Origin: Burkholderia lata
GTDB taxonomy: Bacteria; Pseudomonadota; Gammaproteobacteria; Burkholderiales; Burkholderiaceae
Direction: 5' to 3'
Length of the DNA stretch: 64,000 nt
NCBI RefSeq assembly: GCF_000012945.1
Contig: NC_007510.1
Coordinates: 372,001-436,000 of the forward strand
This document shows positions 38,644-48,841 of this stretch, piece by piece. Below the pieces are notes generated by a model. The model had not been told where the DNA came from and searched no databases. It worked only from the letters and a program-made list of their open reading frames with translations. How positions within the stretch are numbered: the stretch's first letter is position 1; the number at the start of each line of letters is the position of its first letter. The position numbers were made by a program, and so were the translations under genes.

Positions 38644-38964
38644 CGCAGATCTCCAGTGGTCAGCGTGGTGTGGGGGAGCGCCATGCGCCGGGCGGGCAAG
38701 GCGGGCCGTAATACGGGCATGTAGACACTACTCGCAACCGGGCCGCGCCGAAACCGGAATTGGCCCTGATTGCAATCGATTTCATGGATGCGGTGGTCGG
38801 CAGGCGTGGCTGCTGCCCACATGCGTGGCACGCGGGCTGATCGGCTTGCGCTGGTTTAAATCAGGTCAGATTGGAGGGCGCGTGCAGCTTTGTCTGTAAA
38901 ATCGCGCGAGCAAAATCGAATGCTCGTGCCATCCGAGGGCGCGTCAAAAGAAAAAAGGCCGTTC
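38644..38964. other. Divergent intergenic region upstream of vgrG
   Basis: Holds the 5' regions of the binding-protein gene and the vgrG-rhs operon. Candidate elements on plus are TAAAAT (38897-38902) without a well-spaced -35, and a small inverted repeat CGAGCA/TGCTCG (38907-38926). No small gene is supported. Confidence 0.4.
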
Positions 38965-41900
38965 ATGAACATGCAGAACACAATCGCCGCCTTGAGCGGC
39001 GGATTGCTTCAGCAGGACCGGTTGCTGAAGCTCGATACGCCATTGGGTGCCAACGTCCTGACCGTTCAGCGGGCGGTCGGCCGCTCGCGTATCGGGCGCG
39101 CGTACGAGTTCACGCTCGACGTGCTGTCGACCGACAGCGATGTGGAACTTAAAAAGCTGATCGCACAGCCGGTGACGTTGTGGATCCAGCAGGGCGATCT
39201 CGGCTACCGGCCAGTCAACGGATATGTGCATACCGCACGCCGGCTGGGCGCCGACGGCGGGCTCACGACCTATCAGCTCGCGTTCGCGGATTTCACCCAT
39301 TTCCTGAAGTTCCGTCGCGATCAGCGGCTCTGGAACGACACGACCGTCGACCAGATCATCAGCGATGTGCTGAACCAGCATCCGCAGGCCCAGGGCCATT
39401 TCCGCTTTGCGCTGACGAAGCCGCTGCCGAACCGCTCCTACACACGCCAGCACGACACCGACTGGCATTTCGTGCATCGGCTGATGGAGAGCGAGGGGCT
39501 CTACTGCGCATGGCAGCAGGCCGACGACGGCAAGTCGCATACGCTCGTCATCACCGACAACCTGCAGGCGTTCGCGCCGCTGTCGCCGGAAGCCGTGCGC
39601 TTTTATCGCGGCGGCGCGGCCAGCGAAGCCGACGCGTTCACGCAATGGTCGGGTACGCGCATGCTGCAGAGCGTGACCCGCACGACGCGCACGTTCGACT
39701 ACAAGAATCCTTCGCAGCCGTCGAACCCGAAAGGCACGTCGCTGCCGACGATGGGCGGCCAGGGCGAGTTGCCGGATCAACTCGAAGTCTACGAGTACAC
39801 GGGCGGCTACACGTATCTCGACCAGACGCGCGGTGACCATCTGACGAAGGTCAAGATGGAGGCGTGGGAGTCGCAAGCGAAGCGTTTCCATGGCGCGGGC
39901 GGCGTGCGTGCGATCGATGCCGGCCGGCGCTTCACGCTGGCCGATCATCCCGAGCACGATCGTGATCCCGCCGATCAGCGCGAGTTCGCCGCGATCGAGG
40001 TCGCGTGGTGGATCGAGAACAATCTGCCCGTCGCAAGCGACAGCGCGGACTTTCCGTACAGCCTGCGCGAAGCGTTGACGCAGGCACAGGACAACTACGG
40101 CGCCGATCCTGCGTTTCGCGTTCAGCACGACGACGGTTCGGCCGGCTTCTATCTCGTCGAAGTCGAAGCGCAACGTGTGAGCGTCCCGTATCGCAGCCCG
40201 TTCGAGCATCACAAGCCGGAGATGCACCTCGAGACCGCGATCGTCGTCGGGCCGCAGGGCGAGGAAGTCTATACCGACACCCTGAACCGGATCCGCGTGC
40301 AGTTCGTGTGGGACCGGATGAACCCGGGTAACGAGAATGCATCGTGCTGGGTGCGCGTCGTGCAGTCGGATACGGGCGGTGGCTACGGCGGCGTGCACGT
40401 GCCGCGCATCGGCGAGGAGGTGCTGATCGACTACGTCGGCGGCGACTGCGACCGGCCGCTCGCGGTCGGGCGCGTGTACAACGGCGCGAACCAGCCGCAG
40501 TGGCATACCGACGGGATCCTGTCCGGGTATCGGTCGAAAGAGTATTCGGGCAGCGGCTACAACCAGCTCGTGATGGACGACGCGACCGGGCAAAACCGCG
40601 TGCAGCTGATGAGCAGCAGCGCGAACAGCCTGCTGCATCTCGGCTACCTCATCGATCACAACGCCAATTCGCGCGGGTCGTATCTCGGCAGCGGGTTCGA
40701 CCTGCGTTCCGATGCGTATGGTGCGGTGCGGGCGAGCCAGGGCCTGTACGTGACGACGCACCCGAAGGCAGCGAACAGCCAGCCGCTCGACGTGAGGGAA
40801 GCGCAGCAGCAGCTCGTGACGGGCGAGACCCTCGTCGAGGCGATGTCGGGCGCGAGCGAGCAGCATCAGGCGGAAAGCCTGAAGGACGCGCAGGACACGA
40901 TGCGCGCGTTCACGGACGCGACACAGGACAGCGCATCGGGCAGCGCGTCCGGCGGGCGTACGGCAGGCGGCGGCACGGGTAACGCGAACGCATTCAAGGA
41001 GCCGGTGATGCTGTTCGGCAGCCCGTCGGGGATCGGGATGTCGACGCAGCAGTCGGTGCACGTGGTCGCGAACGATCACGTGAACGTGGCGAGCGGGCAG
41101 AGCGTGCACGTTGCCGCAGGCAAGTCGCTGATCGGGAGCATCGGGCAGAAGCTGAGCCTGTTCGTGCAGAACGCGGGGATGAAGCTGTTCGCGGGCAAGG
41201 GCAAGGTGGAGATCCAGGCGCAGTCGGACAACGTCGAGGTGACCGCGCAGAAGACGGTGAAGGTGGTGTCGTCGACGGACCGGATCGAGATCGCGGCCGA
41301 TCAGGGGATTCTGCTGACGAGCGGCGGCGGGTATGTCCGCATCCAGGGCGGGAATATCGAGATCCATACGCCGGGGGCGGTGGATGTGAAGGGCGCGTCG
41401 CATACGTTCGCGGGGCCGGCGAGCATGGGGTATCCGTTGCCGAGCCCGCGGCCGGATCAGCCGGGGCAGTTGGAGTTGTTGCATACGTACGGGAACGGCC
41501 AGCCGGTGAAGGGCGGCTTGTTCTCGGTGTTCGATGCGAATGGCGGGCTGTTGAAGAAAGGGGCGCTCGACAACAACGGGCACATGATCGTGAGTGGCCT
41601 GCCACCGGGGGCGGTGCAGGTGAAGTTCGGGGAGGATCCGCGCTCGCAGGATCAACAGGCGAGCCGGTTCGATGTGGCGCCGTGGCCGGCCAATCCGGCG
41701 CCGGCGGCAGGCGCCGCGGAAACCGCACAGGCGCAGCTCGGTTCGTTTCTGCCGGCAGCGGGTGGTGCAGCCGGCGCGCTGACGGGCCTGGCCGGTGCGG
41801 CGACGCAGGGTGGAGCGGCGCTGGCGAAGGCCGCCGTTGGTCAAGGCATGGGCATGGCGCAGCAGGCGCTGGTCGGCATGCTGCCGGCCGGCGCGTCGAA

Positions 41901-42144
41901 TGCACTGGGTGCGGCGAAAACGGTCGCGGGATTGGCGAGCTCGGCGTCGCAGGGCGGTGCTGCCCTTGCGAAGGCAGTGGCAGGCCAGGGCCTCGGTATC
42001 GCGCAGCAGGCTGCGGCCAACATGCTGCCGGCGGGGGCGCAGGCGGCGCTGTCGCACGCGGGCCAGTTGAGTGCCGCCGCGCAGCAGGTCAGCGGTCTCG
42101 CGCAGACGGCGCGTAGCGCCGCCGCCGCGCTGAAAATGAGCTGA
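38965..42144 (+). CDS. vgrG: T6SS spike protein VgrG with repeated Ala/Gly-rich tail
   Basis: Trimeric spike tip of the type VI needle, 1059 residues. The gp27-like N-terminal part includes RSYTRQHDTDWHFVHRLMESEG. The gp5/OB-fold part includes RIRVQFVWDRMNPG and VPRIGEEVLIDYVGGDCDRP. Next comes the DUF2345 beta-helix region (SGQSVHVAAGKSLIG, KGKVEIQAQSDNVEV). A further domain follows (GNGQPVKGGLFSVFDANGG, about residues 840-900). The last 120 residues contain two 48-residue repeats (942-989 and 990-1037), 29 of 48 positions identical, each with QGGAALAKA and MLPAGA. The tail is probably an adaptor for loading the Rhs effector encoded 37 bp downstream. The start MNMQNTIAALSGG was chosen by alignment with the second VgrG. 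Confidence 0.93.
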   Translation: MNMQNTIAALSGGLLQQDRLLKLDTPLGANVLTVQRAVGRSRIGRAYEFTLDVLSTDSDVELKKLIAQPVTLWIQQGDLGYRPVNGYVHTARRLGADGGLTTYQLAFADFTHFLKFRRDQRLWNDTTVDQIISDVLNQHPQAQGHFRFALTKPLPNRSYTRQHDTDWHFVHRLMESEGLYCAWQQADDGKSHTLVITDNLQAFAPLSPEAVRFYRGGAASEADAFTQWSGTRMLQSVTRTTRTFDYKNPSQPSNPKGTSLPTMGGQGELPDQLEVYEYTGGYTYLDQTRGDHLTKVKMEAWESQAKRFHGAGGVRAIDAGRRFTLADHPEHDRDPADQREFAAIEVAWWIENNLPVASDSADFPYSLREALTQAQDNYGADPAFRVQHDDGSAGFYLVEVEAQRVSVPYRSPFEHHKPEMHLETAIVVGPQGEEVYTDTLNRIRVQFVWDRMNPGNENASCWVRVVQSDTGGGYGGVHVPRIGEEVLIDYVGGDCDRPLAVGRVYNGANQPQWHTDGILSGYRSKEYSGSGYNQLVMDDATGQNRVQLMSSSANSLLHLGYLIDHNANSRGSYLGSGFDLRSDAYGAVRASQGLYVTTHPKAANSQPLDVREAQQQLVTGETLVEAMSGASEQHQAESLKDAQDTMRAFTDATQDSASGSASGGRTAGGGTGNANAFKEPVMLFGSPSGIGMSTQQSVHVVANDHVNVASGQSVHVAAGKSLIGSIGQKLSLFVQNAGMKLFAGKGKVEIQAQSDNVEVTAQKTVKVVSSTDRIEIAADQGILLTSGGGYVRIQGGNIEIHTPGAVDVKGASHTFAGPASMGYPLPSPRPDQPGQLELLHTYGNGQPVKGGLFSVFDANGGLLKKGALDNNGHMIVSGLPPGAVQVKFGEDPRSQDQQASRFDVAPWPANPAPAAGAAETAQAQLGSFLPAAGGAAGALTGLAGAATQGGAALAKAAVGQGMGMAQQALVGMLPAGASNALGAAKTVAGLASSASQGGAALAKAVAGQGLGIAQQAAANMLPAGAQAALSHAGQLSAAAQQVSGLAQTARSAAAALKMS

Positions 42145-42181: not shown

Positions 42182-45100
42182 ATGACCGCTGCGGGCGTCC
42201 TTCAACCCAAACCTACCGATGTGTTCGTGTCTCCGATCATGAAGATCACGGAGGCCGACGTACAAGCCGGCATCGATGTATTCGACAAGTGGCTGATCAA
42301 GGTCAGCGGCGGCGTGGTCAACGTCGGCCGGCTGAAGACGGTCGCGGAGAACGTGCCGGTTCTGGCCAATATCTTTGCGGCAGTCGATGCGGTGCTCGAC
42401 ATCAAGGCGATGATCGAGCATGGCGATGAACCGATCGACATGTTCGACTGGGTCAACCTCGGTCTCGATCTGATCGGGGTCGTGCCGTTGCCGCCGGCTA
42501 CCGCCGAGCTTCGGCTCGGCGCGCGCCCGGTGCTGAAGCTCATTCGGCAAGAGATCGTCAAAAGTGGCAAGGCGGTGGGCGAGGCAGCGTTGCAGGTGCT
42601 GCGGGATTCGGTCATCTCCGCAATCGTCGCGAACGTGCAGGAGCGTTATGCGGGCGAGATCGAAAAATTCCTGAAGGTGATACGTGACGGGCTGAAGGAG
42701 CTGCTCGAGCACTGCGCCAAATTCATCGGCGATCTGATGAAGGCGATCGCCGACGTGTTCGCCCATGCGGCGGGGAAGAAGTACGAAGTCGGGCACAACG
42801 TGAAGTCGGCCGGGTCGCATCTGAAGGGTGTCGGGGAGGCTATCGTTGCGTACGACGGCAGGAAGATCCTCGACAATTTCGGCGGATTCCTCTCGGACAT
42901 CCGCAAGGTCGAGGGGAAGGTCGTTATCAACACGGCGACCTCCGCCGCCGATCTGATCACCCCGAATTCGACGAAGAAGCTTCAGCTCTTCGCCGACGAT
43001 ATCTACAAGCGGATTCCGACGGTCCAGAAGTGCATTCGCGAGCTCGACGGGAACGATGCGGGCAAGATCGGGTGGATCATCACGATCGGTGAAGACGGCA
43101 TGCGGAGCTGGCGCAAGAGCCATCCGAAGCCGCAGTCGGCGGGGATTCAGGAACACAAGACGGCGAAGGTCAAAGAGACGCGTCCGGAACATCGAATTGA
43201 CGAGGTTCAAAAAACCACTGAAGCGCATCATCCGGGGCCGAGTTGTTGCCCGACACATACCCCGGTGAAGACGCCACCTGCCGCCACCCTGAATTCAATC
43301 GGATTCGCGCTCGGCGACGAGCAAATCAATCACGAAGACTTCACGATCGACGGGCCGTTACCCATTGCCTGGGCGCGTACCTATCGATCGTTCTTCGACG
43401 CGAACGACGAGCAGGGCGAACTAGGCGCACGCTGGATCACGCCGTATACGACGCGTTTCGATATTGCTGCGGAAAAGCTCGTCTATCACGATGCCGCCGG
43501 ACGAAGTATCGAATACCCGCTACTCGGTGTTGGAAGTGCGCATGATGATCTTTCCGAGGGACAGACGTTATTGCGGCTGGACGAGCAGTGGCTGACGGTG
43601 ACGCGCGGACATACGCTGCTCGAAGCGTACGAGCGGCACGGCAACGTGTTCCGTCTCGCATTCGTCAAGGACCGCGCCGGCAATCAGGTGACGCTCGACT
43701 ACGATACCGAAGGGCGGTTGCATCGCCTGATTGCATCGCACGTTCAGGTTGCGTTCCGACATGACGTGCGGGGGCGGATCGTTGGCATTACGCATCATGA
43801 CGCACAAGGCGAGTACGTCGGCACACTTGCGAGCTACGAGTACGACGACCAGAACGATCTGATCGGGGCGACGGACCGCTACGGTAATCGCCGCGAGTAC
43901 CGTTATCGACACCACCTCGTGACGCGATATACCGATCGCACTGGCCGCGGTGTGAACCTCGAGTGGAACGGTGACGGCCCGAAGGCAAAATGCTTCCGCG
44001 AATACGCCGACGACGGCAGCGATGAGGTCCGCCTCGCGTGGCATCCGGACTTCCGGATGGTCAGCGTGACCGACGCGCTCGGCAATGTCACGCACCACTA
44101 CTACGACAGCAAGGGTTATTCGTTCCGTGTGATTCATCCGGACGGTAGCGAAGAGTGGATGTATCGGGACGCGAACGACAAACTCGTTCAGTACATCCAT
44201 CGTGACGGTACCGTCGAGCAGATGGAATACGATGTGCGCGGCAACTTCGTACGCCATCAGCGTACCGACGGCAGCGTGGTCGAGATGGCGTACGACCAGA
44301 AGGACCAGCTCGTTCGCGTGACCGATCCACTTGGGCATCCGTGGCTGCGTGAATATGACGATGCGGGGAACATGGTGGCGGAAGTCGACCCGCTCGGCCA
44401 CAAGACCGAATATGCGTACGACGGGCGAGGACTGCTTACCCGGATCAAGGATGCGAAGGGAGGCGTGAAAGCGCTGAAGTACGACGACGTCGGCCAGTTG
44501 ACCGGTTATACCGATTGCTCGGGCAAGACGTCGCAGTGGGCGTATGACGCGCAGGGGCGCCTCTCGGAAGCGAAGGATGCGGCGGGTGGGGTAACTGCAT
44601 ACCGTTATGGTGCGAATGGCCAGTTGATCGAAGTCGTGTCGCCGGCGGGGCGCGAGCAACTGAGCTACGACGCGGAAGGGCGTCTGCTGACCCATATCGA
44701 TCCGCTGAACCGCAACACGCGTTACGGCTACGACGCGAGCGGGCGTATCAATATCCGCACCGATGCGTTGGGGCAATCGCTGTCATATCGCTATGACCGG
44801 CTCGGGCGGATCGTTGGGCTGACCAACCAGAATCACGCGAATTACTCGTTTCGCTATGACGTGGCAGGTCGAATGATCGAGGAGATCGATTTCGACGGGA
44901 AGGCCACGCGCTATTCGTATGACGAGGCGAGCAGCCGTCTCGAATCGGTCGACGAGGCGGGACAGGTCATGACGATGTCCCACGATCGCGGTGGACGGCT
45001 TAATGGCCGTTCGGTCGGCGAAGAGGCGGAGCGTTTCTCGTACGACCCGCTGGGACGATTGATCGAGGCCAGCAATCGATATAGCCGCGTTCAACGGTTC

Positions 45101-46864
45101 TTCGACCCGGCCGGTAATCTGGTGCGCGAGCATCACGCTTACGACCTGTTCGGTTCGAGCCGGAGTTTCGTATGGCATCACCGGTACGACGAAATCGGCA
45201 ACCGGATCGGAACGGTCCGGCCGGACGGCCATGCAGTCGACTGGCTCACGTACGGCTCGGGACACGTCCACGGGTTGATGCTCGACGGCAAGGAACTCGT
45301 TCAGATCGAGCGGGACGATCTGCATCGGGAAACGTTGCGCACCCTGCCGAGCAAGATCGATCAACACACTGCATACGATCGTGCAGGCAGGTTGGCGCAG
45401 CGTACGGTACAGCGTGCGAATGCACCCGCGCCGCTGGCGGAGCGTCGGTATCGTTACGACGCGGCCGGCCAACTCGTACAGATTGAAGACAATCGCAGAG
45501 GATTGACGGACTATCGTTACGATCCGGTCGGACGGTTGCTCGAGTCGATCGGACCGGCGGGCAAGGAGCGGTTCGCGTTCGATCCGGCGAGCAATATCAT
45601 CGACCCGGTACGTGTTGAAGCGCCTCGCACGGAGAGCCGGCCGAGTCCGGTACGTGCTACCGAGAGTACGTTGCCTGCGGAAGTGCCCAAGGTGTTGGGC
45701 AACTTGTTGAAGCAATATGCGGGGGAGCATTTCGCGTACGACGCGCGCGGCAATCTCGTCCATCGCAGATCGCCAGCGGGTGAGCAGCGTTACGAGTGGA
45801 ACGCGTTCAATCGGATGACTGCGGCGACGGTTGACGAGGTCGCTCGCAGGAGCGAGTCGCGGTACTACTACGATGCGCTGGGCCGTCGTATTGCGAAAGA
45901 GGTGAACGGCGAGCGCACGGTGTTCGGGTGGGATGGCGATACGCTGGCATATGAGAGTGGGGAGCAGGGCAGCACGCATTACCTTTACGAAGCGGGTTCG
46001 TTCGTGCCGATGGTGCAGTACGCGAGTGCATCGGTAGACGGGTTCGAGACGCCGTCGCGCCGTGAGACCGATCGGTATGTACCGGAAGACGATCCGTTGC
46101 AACGGTTGCCGGAGCGGGTGGGGGATGCGCACGCGTTCTATTACCACTGCGACCAGATCGGCACACCGCAATTGCTGACGGATGACGAAGGCGATGTGGT
46201 GTGGGAGGCGTCGTATAAGGCGTGGGGGGAAGCGCGGGAGGTGATCGCGCGGGCGTCGAAGGTGGCGGGGATCGTGCCGAGGAGTTCGTTGCGGTTTCAG
46301 GGGCAACAGGTTGATGATGAAACGGGGCTGCACTACAACCGGCACCGGTACTATGATCCGAGATCGGGGCGTTTCGTATCGAAAGACCCGATCGGGCTCG
46401 CTGGCGGCATCAACGTTTATCAATACGCGCCCAATCCGGTCAAGTGGGTCGATCCGTTAGGGCTATCGAAGTCCGAGGGTGGCTGCTCTTGCTCATGTGG
46501 CATCAATCCGGTGACAGGTAAGCCGAGAGGGACGCTTCAAAAACTGGCGCAGAAAATCCGCGAGGCTGGAAAGTTTAAGCCCGCCGTAAACCAAAGAACG
46601 ATTGCAGTTGGTCAGGACGAGTCTGGCGGCTTGTTTGCAGGCAGTAGCAACGGTTTTGATGCAGGTCAACGAGAAATGGCCGATAGTCTTGGAATAAAGA
46701 GGGTTCCTACTTCTAAGAATAAGCATGCGGAAGAGAATTTGATGAATTGCGTTCTGGGATTAAAATCAGTTGGAACGTCAAAGCGTGATCCTTGTGGACC
46801 TTCAGAGCATAATTGCGCCGGCCAGCTTGCCGACAAAGGTATTGATGTCGACAACTTACATTAA
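42182..46864 (+). CDS. Rhs-family T6SS effector with deaminase-like toxin tip
   Basis: A 1560-residue polymorphic toxin. Residues 1-360 are a helical N-terminal region with hydrophobic stretches (VLANIFAAVDAVLDI, LGLDLIGVVPLPP); no PAAR domain is recognisable. The Rhs cage follows from about residue 370 with many YD repeats and the core end GLHYNRHRYYDPRSGRF, SKDPIGLAGG. The self-cleavage motif DPLGL is at residues 1424-1428. The 132-residue tip after it is A/T-rich and has HAEEN (His1515, Glu1517) and CGPSEHNC (Cys1538, Cys1545), the zinc ligand layout of the cytidine-deaminase superfamily. It is probably a nucleic-acid or nucleotide deaminase; the target is unknown. Confidence 0.9.
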   Translation: MTAAGVLQPKPTDVFVSPIMKITEADVQAGIDVFDKWLIKVSGGVVNVGRLKTVAENVPVLANIFAAVDAVLDIKAMIEHGDEPIDMFDWVNLGLDLIGVVPLPPATAELRLGARPVLKLIRQEIVKSGKAVGEAALQVLRDSVISAIVANVQERYAGEIEKFLKVIRDGLKELLEHCAKFIGDLMKAIADVFAHAAGKKYEVGHNVKSAGSHLKGVGEAIVAYDGRKILDNFGGFLSDIRKVEGKVVINTATSAADLITPNSTKKLQLFADDIYKRIPTVQKCIRELDGNDAGKIGWIITIGEDGMRSWRKSHPKPQSAGIQEHKTAKVKETRPEHRIDEVQKTTEAHHPGPSCCPTHTPVKTPPAATLNSIGFALGDEQINHEDFTIDGPLPIAWARTYRSFFDANDEQGELGARWITPYTTRFDIAAEKLVYHDAAGRSIEYPLLGVGSAHDDLSEGQTLLRLDEQWLTVTRGHTLLEAYERHGNVFRLAFVKDRAGNQVTLDYDTEGRLHRLIASHVQVAFRHDVRGRIVGITHHDAQGEYVGTLASYEYDDQNDLIGATDRYGNRREYRYRHHLVTRYTDRTGRGVNLEWNGDGPKAKCFREYADDGSDEVRLAWHPDFRMVSVTDALGNVTHHYYDSKGYSFRVIHPDGSEEWMYRDANDKLVQYIHRDGTVEQMEYDVRGNFVRHQRTDGSVVEMAYDQKDQLVRVTDPLGHPWLREYDDAGNMVAEVDPLGHKTEYAYDGRGLLTRIKDAKGGVKALKYDDVGQLTGYTDCSGKTSQWAYDAQGRLSEAKDAAGGVTAYRYGANGQLIEVVSPAGREQLSYDAEGRLLTHIDPLNRNTRYGYDASGRINIRTDALGQSLSYRYDRLGRIVGLTNQNHANYSFRYDVAGRMIEEIDFDGKATRYSYDEASSRLESVDEAGQVMTMSHDRGGRLNGRSVGEEAERFSYDPLGRLIEASNRYSRVQRFFDPAGNLVREHHAYDLFGSSRSFVWHHRYDEIGNRIGTVRPDGHAVDWLTYGSGHVHGLMLDGKELVQIERDDLHRETLRTLPSKIDQHTAYDRAGRLAQRTVQRANAPAPLAERRYRYDAAGQLVQIEDNRRGLTDYRYDPVGRLLESIGPAGKERFAFDPASNIIDPVRVEAPRTESRPSPVRATESTLPAEVPKVLGNLLKQYAGEHFAYDARGNLVHRRSPAGEQRYEWNAFNRMTAATVDEVARRSESRYYYDALGRRIAKEVNGERTVFGWDGDTLAYESGEQGSTHYLYEAGSFVPMVQYASASVDGFETPSRRETDRYVPEDDPLQRLPERVGDAHAFYYHCDQIGTPQLLTDDEGDVVWEASYKAWGEAREVIARASKVAGIVPRSSLRFQGQQVDDETGLHYNRHRYYDPRSGRFVSKDPIGLAGGINVYQYAPNPVKWVDPLGLSKSEGGCSCSCGINPVTGKPRGTLQKLAQKIREAGKFKPAVNQRTIAVGQDESGGLFAGSSNGFDAGQREMADSLGIKRVPTSKNKHAEENLMNCVLGLKSVGTSKRDPCGPSEHNCAGQLADKGIDVDNLH

Positions 46865-46874
46865 GGTGATATGA

Positions 46875-47201
46875 ATGAGCGATTTTGAGTTTGATATCTC
46901 AGTTGATCATGCTTTCGATCGGAGCGGTGGTAAGGCTGTTCTCATTAAATTCTCGGCGCCGGTGGTGGAGTTAAATGTGTATGTGTCGATCGTTGATGTT
47001 GGGAAGATCATCCATTTCGGAAGGCGGGGGAGTGACTATGCCTTAGTAGGGGAGTCGGCGAATAGTTCAGTTCATTGGAAAAGAGAGGATGGTGATGTAT
47101 ATGTGCTTGTTGGAGAGGATCAAGAGGTGTGGGATTTCTCGATCGTCATCAATGATGATTTGCTTGATCAAGTGATATCGGAAATTGAGAACTTGCCCTG
47201 A
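46875..47201 (+). CDS. Probable immunity protein for the Rhs deaminase-like toxin
   Basis: A 108-residue acidic protein encoded 10 bases after the Rhs toxin stop, preceded by AAGGTGAT. Sequence (SDFEFDISVDHAFDRSG at its start, ending LDQVISEIENLP) matches no family that I can name. Small size, acidity, low GC like the toxin tip and position are typical of cognate immunity proteins. That assignment rests on context only. Confidence 0.7.
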   Translation: MSDFEFDISVDHAFDRSGGKAVLIKFSAPVVELNVYVSIVDVGKIIHFGRRGSDYALVGESANSSVHWKREDGDVYVLVGEDQEVWDFSIVINDDLLDQVISEIENLP

Positions 47202-47268: not shown

Positions 47269-47908
47269 TACGATGCAATCAGAGAAGCGGCACGGCAGGC
47301 GGGCATCACGAATCCGCCGCGGTTCACCGGACAGTACTTCGATCGCGAAACGGGGCTGCACTATAACCGGCACCGGTATTACGATTCGCAATCGGGTCGA
47401 TTCATCTCGAAAAACTTTATCGGGCTCGTGGGCAGCATCAACGTTTAGCAGTACGCGCCGAATTCGATAAGCTGGATCGATCCGACTGGACTCTCTGGAT
47501 TCGAGCCGAAAGTTCTAACGAGTGGAACCGTTTTTTGGAAATGCGTTTGGAACACCTGATAGTCCTACTCCAAGACTTGGGAAAGGCGCGGATCGCAAAG
47601 GCGGGAAAGAGTCAGGTGTATCGGCGGCGACGTCAGTGGCTGGACTGGATAGCGGGAAATACGTTGCGCTAGACTTGGAAAAGCGTTGCTCGTGTGGCTT
47701 ACAAGCGACGAATGACAAATCAAACGATCACGTAACAATTCGACCCATAAACGATTCTGCCGATTCAAAGTTAATTGATTTGGAAAAGCCCGGAGAATTC
47801 CCGGCAGCCATCTTGAAATTCGATCATCCAAAAAAGCGGAAGACGGCAATCGATGCTTTCCTGGTGCTGAAATCGGGTTGGAGCATCGATGGTGGACTCG
47901 ACTCTTGA
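47269..47908 (+). pseudogene. Orphan Rhs C-terminal tip, broken by a stop and a frameshift
   Basis: A displaced end of an Rhs gene. The frame from 47269 encodes REAARQAGITNPPRFTGQYF, then GLHYNRHRYYDSQSGRF, equivalent to the end of the Rhs core. It has an in-frame TAG (47446-47448) where the intact gene has Tyr (INV-stop-QYAPN), continues to DPTGLSGFE, and then shifts frame at a six-T run (47530-47535). The new frame (47522-47908) encodes a 120-residue tip with LDLEKRCSCGLQATND and FDHPKKRKTAIDAF. The tip resembles no toxin family that I recognise. Orphan tips of this type act as a reserve for recombination onto the full Rhs gene. Confidence 0.8.
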
Positions 47909-47979: not shown

Positions 47980-48360
47980 ATGGACTTCAGATTCTTCGCG
48001 AATATCGTGACTTACACGTTCGAGGACGGCGTCCACATCGTCGGCCTCGCGGATCACGACCCGCCGTCCAGCTACGTGATCCTGCAGCGCGGAACCGAAG
48101 ACGACGAGCAGGACGAGGCGCTCGGTCTCGACACCTACTACATGGAGGTCGGTGAAGATGGCGTGGCCGGATACGGTGGCGTCGCGTCGGTTTCGCTGCA
48201 GGGGGAAATGCTCAACATCGAACTGTCTCGCGATGTCGCATGGCCGGAAGGGCTGGCGTTGGTGACGATCGTTGTGTGTGCAACCGACCGGCTCGAACAC
48301 CTGAAGCAGGGGCTGACGGCGATCTTCGCGAGTCAGGCGATCACGCTGCGCCTCGATTGA
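47980..48360 (+). CDS. Imm10-like immunity protein
   Basis: A 126-residue protein resembling the Imm10 family of contact-dependent toxin immunity proteins. Shared traits are the opening FEDGVHIVGLADHDPPSSYVILQR, the acidic EDDEQDEALGLDTYYMEV block and the YGGVASVSL segment. It follows the orphan Rhs tip by 71 bases and is the likely partner of that tip. Its GC content is closer to the host than that of the preceding immunity gene. Family assignment is from memory of the pattern and needs a profile search. Confidence 0.75.
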   Translation: MDFRFFANIVTYTFEDGVHIVGLADHDPPSSYVILQRGTEDDEQDEALGLDTYYMEVGEDGVAGYGGVASVSLQGEMLNIELSRDVAWPEGLALVTIVVCATDRLEHLKQGLTAIFASQAITLRLD

Positions 48361-48523
48361 TTTGCGGCCGGGCATGAGGCAGCAACGGTCGCAGGACCAA
48401 CCTCATGCGTGCGGAATTGGCATAATCACGGCTCGCTGACACGAGCGCTGCAGCGCATGCATATCCTTGTGCCCGCCGCATTGCCACGCGGGCACATTTA
48501 CCTCTGTTATCACCGCAATACCC

Positions 48524-48841
48524 ATGTCGACCACCTCCGCGACCGAAGTGTCGCTGAAACACATTCTCGAACGCCCGGGCGATTTCTCCGGATGGCTCTA
48601 TCTCCCTCCGATGCCGTGGACGCTCGACACGGAAGGTGCATTCTCCGAAGACACCAAAGATGCCGGAGACGATGCAGTGCCTGCCATCGCCCGACAGACC
48701 GGCTGGCAAGTGACGCTGGACAGCGCGACGATCGAGGACATCGTGATCAATGCGCATGACCAGATTGACGAGCCGACGCTCGCCCAGCTGTTTGACGCGT
48801 TCGTGTTCTACATCGAAAACGACGCGTTCATCCTGTTCTGA
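48524..48841 (+). CDS. DUF7716-like putative immunity protein
   Basis: A 105-residue acidic protein. The segment LERPGDFSGWLYLPPMPWTLDTEG is typical of a small family (DUF7716-like) found beside Rhs and other polymorphic toxins. No toxin sequence precedes it, so it looks like an orphan immunity gene kept for defence against neighbours. The start MSTTSATEVSLKH was chosen by domain position; the SD is weak. It ends 27 bases before a bidirectional terminator. Confidence 0.6.
   Translation: MSTTSATEVSLKHILERPGDFSGWLYLPPMPWTLDTEGAFSEDTKDAGDDAVPAIARQTGWQVTLDSATIEDIVINAHDQIDEPTLAQLFDAFVFYIENDAFILF

Follow-up and report, generated by a model that had tools for sequence, protein, structure and literature searches.

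Closest described systems

Toxin deaminases can mutate survivors besides killing (according to passages of PMC7901873), and base-editing tools have come from such enzymes. This work concerns the C-terminal tip of an Rhs effector from Burkholderia lata (RefSeq assembly GCF_000012945.1), encoded on positions 372,001 to 436,000 of contig NC_007510.1; this whole stretch of 64,000 nucleotides is referred to here as the window, and coordinates count from its first letter. With a probability of roughly 0.7, we consider the tip to be a small zinc-dependent deaminase of an antibacterial Rhs effector, likely acting on cytosine in nucleic acid and accompanied by an adjacent immunity gene. This reading draws on a sequence motif, the conservation of that motif, a relative with the canonical C-x2-C variant, and the predicted fold. 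Judged by its description, the nearest described family is the sce3516-like one, which has an HAE motif, is carried on HINT and RHS proteins, and occurs in actinobacteria and beta-, gamma-, and deltaproteobacteria (sections of PMC3482391).

Several other groups share part of this architecture. In the portions of PMC7901873 that describe it, SsdA, a type VI deaminase toxin (BaDTF2), has an SGW motif and five strands; the tip, in contrast, contains no tryptophan and hence no SGW, and its model has no strand 5. RibD/RibG and Rib2 pyrimidine deaminases resemble the tip in combining HxE with a widely spaced cysteine pair that binds zinc in their crystals: Acinetobacter RibD holds zinc on His54, Cys79, and Cys88 within PCXHXG(R/K)TPPC (excerpts of PMC3668577), and Rib2 holds it on His61, Cys102, and Cys112, with a PCX8-9C motif (excerpts of PMC8256712). 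Unlike the tip, as far as these excerpts go, they are riboflavin enzymes and not toxins, and the RibD loop differs from PCGPSEHNC, the sequence around the cysteines of the tip. DddA-like (PF14428), BURPS668_1122 (PF14424), and YwqJ (PF14431) proteins are toxin tips too, with a paired-cysteine CxxC motif, but their Pfam models miss the window tip and 15 scanned members of its family. Finally, the blasticidin S and cytidine deaminases of solved structure are metabolic or resistance enzymes with a strand 5 and C-terminal parts that are absent from the tip model. These enzymes have CxxC, in contrast to C-x6-C in the tip.

The tip and its proposed zinc site

The features of the effector gene are as follows (the profile behind the domain extent contains the window's own domain; pLDDT is the predicted local distance difference test):

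42182 to 46864, stop included, plus strand: Rhs effector gene, 1,560 amino acids (Pfam RHS_repeat 1e-78, DUF6531 4.2e-16, RHS 2.6e-15)
46451 to 46465, plus strand: DPLGL motif closing the Rhs core, residues 1424-1428, read in translation
46538 to 46861, plus strand: predicted deaminase-fold toxin domain, residues 1453-1560, the extent common to relatives (AlphaFold2 pLDDT 89.2)
46724 to 46735, plus strand: HAEE, with proposed zinc ligand His1515 and proposed proton shuttle Glu1517, identical in 31/31 domains, at the N terminus of model helix 93-100
46793 to 46816, plus strand: Cys1538-x6-Cys1545, proposed as the other two zinc ligands, identical in 31/31 domains

The open frame at 42182-46864 is uninterrupted over its 1,560 codons, and both Pfam and NCBIfam identify its product as an Rhs protein. 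The NCBIfam Rhs_assc_core model covers residues 1345-1428, ending on DPLGL, which we take to be the self-cleavage site of the Rhs core; the 132 residues C-terminal to it constitute the tip. The original prediction had placed His1515 and Glu1517 (in HAEEN) and Cys1538 and Cys1545 (in CGPSEHNC) in a 132-residue tip after DPLGL. This placement was confirmed in the translation and in the codons themselves (46724-46726 for His1515, 46793-46795 for Cys1538, and 46814-46816 for Cys1545). The GC content of the tip (0.483) and the next gene (0.453) is lower than that of the Rhs core (0.607) and the window (0.648), as expected for an exchanged cassette.

Relatives and conservation

Two protein searches retrieved 36 relatives of the tip (20 long proteins and 16 short ones). 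Among the long relatives, precomputed Pfam annotation assigns RHS_repeat, HINT, or what we take from its accession to be SpvB to all but one (19/20); the exception, P0023, carries only PF25023. No known deaminase accession was found among the labels of the 20 long relatives, and the 16 short ones have no label at all. HAEE is present in 35/36 relatives and the cysteine pair in 34/36, spaced as C-x6-C in 33 and as the textbook C-x2-C in one (P0016). Of the two relatives with neither spacing, P0039 stops before reaching the motifs, and in P0025 the first cysteine is absent.

An alignment of 31 unpermuted domains was built from the window's own domain and 30 relatives, leaving out P0025, P0039, and four permuted proteins. 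The histidine and both glutamates of HAEE and both motif cysteines are invariant (31/31), although the relatives overlap in kinship and such counts are not independent events. Because Cys1523, another cysteine within the domain, is kept in only 7/31, the conservation of the motif goes beyond chance. The tip protein has also been maintained: over 131 codons, the window tip and a related tip from a second Burkholderia genome (L011) differ with a nonsynonymous divergence (dN) of 0.10 and a synonymous divergence (dS) of 1.84, the latter near saturation, although the L011 copy is displaced.

A scan of genome contigs yielded seven loci, in Paraliomyxa, a Bryobacteraceae metagenome-assembled genome (MAG), Pseudosporangium, Kutzneria, a Planctomycetaceae MAG, Saccharothrix, and Myceligenerans; with Burkholderia and Microbulbifer, these presumably represent five phyla. 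Among sampled genomes, the tip or its profile was found in 1 of 61 near genomes and 1 of 398 from the phylum, in both cases its own genome. In the sampled phylum of the Paraliomyxa genome, the only match among 282 was that genome itself, and in that of the Kutzneria genome, 2 of 396 matched: the Kutzneria genome and a weak match (E 4e-4) that was dismissed as chance, having no HAEE in its frame. That frame presumably encodes something resembling an SRP-type GTPase. On viral contigs, 27 stretches fitted a pattern search and none was confirmed as a relative; phage and plasmid records gave no match to the tip.

Predicted fold and circular permutation

Deaminases head the structural matches of the AlphaFold2 tip model. 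In this model, His1515-Ala-Glu1517 opens the predicted catalytic helix (93-100), and the two cysteines, in widely spaced form, lie at the start of the next helix (122-128), with Cys1545 at its N terminus. Strands are modeled at 51-56, 61-65, and 104-109, with a short one at 132-133 and the protein end at 137. The deaminase core has five strands, S1 to S5 (as outlined in part of PMC7901873). Strand 5 is missing from the tip, since the model ends just past strand 4 and the unpermuted relatives (truncated P0039 excepted) stop there too, give or take a few residues. In the viral fold library, the best row was a putative phage deaminase (E 8.5e-3), and the rows mix deaminases with unrelated proteins. 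Neither there nor among the structural matches was a clear match to another toxin fold seen.

In four relatives (P0017, P0019, P0021, and P0022), the tip profile matched in swapped order, with positions 21 or 26 to 104 followed C-terminally by positions 2 to 27 or 28. The short C-terminal pieces scored E 2e-4 to 1.4e-3, against a noise yardstick of 0.84 from a stray piece in P0011. On this profile evidence, 4 of the 36 relatives are natural circular permutants, with helix 28-38 and strand 1 relocated to the C terminus. The proteins form two pairs (P0017/P0019 and P0021/P0022) with near-identical tips within each, and perhaps all derive from one event. A literature search for circular permutation in the cytidine deaminase superfamily, by that name, found none, and the term was also absent from the text of a paper returned for circularly permuted toxins of the deaminase fold.

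Proposed function and alternative explanations

If the tip works as its motif and model suggest, the antibacterial Rhs effector would probably be delivered via the neighboring type VI secretion system, and the tip would be freed after the DPLGL motif. Zinc would be held by His1515, Cys1538, and Cys1545, and Glu1517 would activate a zinc-bound water, which would replace the amino group on a base. This base would most likely be cytosine in nucleic acid, and the gene 10 bases downstream of the Rhs gene would confer immunity. The tip thus probably poisons rival bacteria through base deamination. Its assignment to the deaminase superfamily, as originally predicted, is supported by the conservation, the canonical C-x2-C relative P0016 within its own family, and the predicted fold. 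The wide cysteine spacing in that prediction is real and typical of the family. The view that six residues are unusual needs correcting, since the spacing in the solved RibD and Rib2 structures is wider; these provide a structural precedent, and a PF00383 member (L059) likewise combines HAE with PC-x8-C.

Library searches weigh against a deaminase. The tip drew neither a deaminase hit nor any other informative one from Pfam, NCBIfam, PHROGs, or PADLOC, and lines for SNRNP27 (E 0.08) and Toxin_21 (E 0.54) were taken for chance. With E allowed up to 1, neither the tip nor the 15 members matched the Pfam models of DddA-like, BURPS668_1122, YwqJ, or DYW (PF14432). A search of the Protein Data Bank with a sequence profile of the tip returned no matches at E up to 10. 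Profile-profile comparison of the tip alignment was made with PF14424 (4 sequences of 5 loci), DddA-like (3/3), YwqJ (7/9), and PF00383 (20/30), and gave probabilities of 0.12 to 0.46%, also unfavorable to a deaminase. With the tip as the query, the probabilities were 1.28% for the reversed tip, 1.13% for DUF416, and 0.14% for the immunity family. Because known deaminase families score only 0.13 to 17.8% against one another, this test is weak either way.

The deaminase fold might instead serve another activity, such as that of a different zinc-dependent hydrolase or of a nucleic acid binder that kills otherwise. The absent strand 5 and expanded cysteine loop would fit such a protein, and nondeaminase toxins with this fold are described, e.g., Tox-JAB (a section of Zhang et al., PMC3482391). 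However, HAE plus PC..C is kept in 34/36 relatives and the canonical C-x2-C occurs in one, which makes a nondeaminase improbable. A zinc deaminase could also act on a small molecule, such as a free nucleoside or nucleotide, poisoning the cell by draining or corrupting a pool instead of editing nucleic acid. Deaminases at the head of the structural matches do not argue for this, as a minimal core would best match the smallest deaminases regardless of substrate, and DNA is the substrate of DddA and SsdA, which are characterized toxin deaminases (portions of PMC7901873). By analogy with these two, cytosine in nucleic acid is somewhat favored as the target of the tip; free nucleosides or nucleotides seem unlikely, another deamination slightly more so, and no deamination at all the least likely. 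This apportionment is a matter of judgement.

Less probably, the tip could belong to the described sce3516-like toxin deaminases, and hence to no new family, which would be compatible with each of the readings above. Its family likewise has HAE, HINT and RHS carriers, and overlapping phyla; yet the description of the sce3516-like proteins includes a CxxC motif, a beta-hairpin at the C terminus, and Imm-SUKH (the relevant parts of PMC3482391), a comparison by description only. Here, by contrast, C-x6-C dominates (CxxC only in P0016), the model stops after strand 4, and the neighbors seen are P0003 (see below) or DUF416, so membership is doubtful. A bolder reading, less likely than not, is a distinct toxin-deaminase family, with a pared four-strand core, an expanded zinc-cysteine loop, tolerance of circular permutation, unrelated immunity proteins (a 108-amino-acid Burkholderia protein here and DUF416 elsewhere), and possibly a substrate that characterized toxin deaminases do not use. 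The general kind is already known; with its expanded cysteine loop, its lack of strand 5, its permuted members, and its pairing with DUF416, the family is at the least a new variant. A family that the searched profile libraries miss, with its small core, altered zinc loop, and natural permutants, would broaden the range of sequences known for the fold and would test which of its parts are needed. It would also suggest an immunity role for DUF416, of "unknown function" in Pfam.

Genomic neighborhood and candidate immunity genes

Two plus-strand genes flank the Rhs gene:

38890 to 42144, plus strand: gene for a VgrG-type spike of type VI secretion, immediately upstream of Rhs (Pfam Phage_GPD 1.8e-88, DUF2345 2.5e-56, T6SS_Vgr 2.6e-33)
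46875 to 47201, plus strand: candidate immunity gene P0003, 108 amino acids, 10 bases past the Rhs stop

Pfam also identifies DotU, VasE, TssF, and a ClpB-like ATPase downstream of Rhs; two further minus-strand frames in the neighborhood have no Pfam match. The locus thus combines an Rhs core, a VgrG neighbor, and a downstream immunity candidate (the last by gene order only), as in type VI Rhs effectors. Between 46000 and 49000, no Rfam family was found, and promoter and terminator scans stayed at chance level.

P0003 has six database entries including itself, of which the named ones (four) are all Burkholderia, and among 65 genomes of the genus, 2 contain it; its model is mostly beta, with a pLDDT of 65, too low for a comparison of folds. 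The order of tip and candidate recurs in L011, where a P0003 relative (66% identical; identical to P0043 of Burkholderia) begins 10 bases past the related tip. This tip is joined to a short Rhs fragment, and its cysteine loop is shortened to C-x1-C. Between the window and L011, the candidate immunity gene has a dN of 0.20 (107 codons). L011 looks as if it were a silent cassette in which the active-site region decays and the immunity gene stays.

Elsewhere, a DUF416 gene directly follows the related tip, as found by Pfam in L003 (6340-6987), L004 (4254-4883), and L006 (6355-6954) and by homology to L004 and L006 in L005 (6333-6953). These pairs come from four genomes in three phyla, and DUF416 is a candidate immunity family for the related tips. 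With P0003 beside some tips and DUF416 beside others, one toxin family would have two apparently unrelated candidate immunity families. In L007, a 243-amino-acid gene next to the tip has no detected similarity to these; behind the partial tips of L008 and L009, DUF416-like genes were likewise not seen. A literature search for DUF416 as an immunity protein, judged by titles, found none.

Beyond P0003, positions 47330-47908 hold the remnant of a second Rhs core end, which carries an in-frame stop. Next comes an open frame (47522-47908) with no profile matches in Pfam, NCBIfam, PHROGs, or PADLOC; the segment looks like a displaced old tip. An Imm10 immunity gene follows at 47980-48360 (Pfam, E 1.6e-13). 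Imm10 has been tied to Pput_2613 deaminases (part of Zhang 2012, PMC3482391), and this gene may have had a deaminase tip, since lost, as its partner. The row of cassettes ends with a DUF7716 protein at 48467-48841 (E 1.7e-31), possibly the product of another orphan immunity gene.
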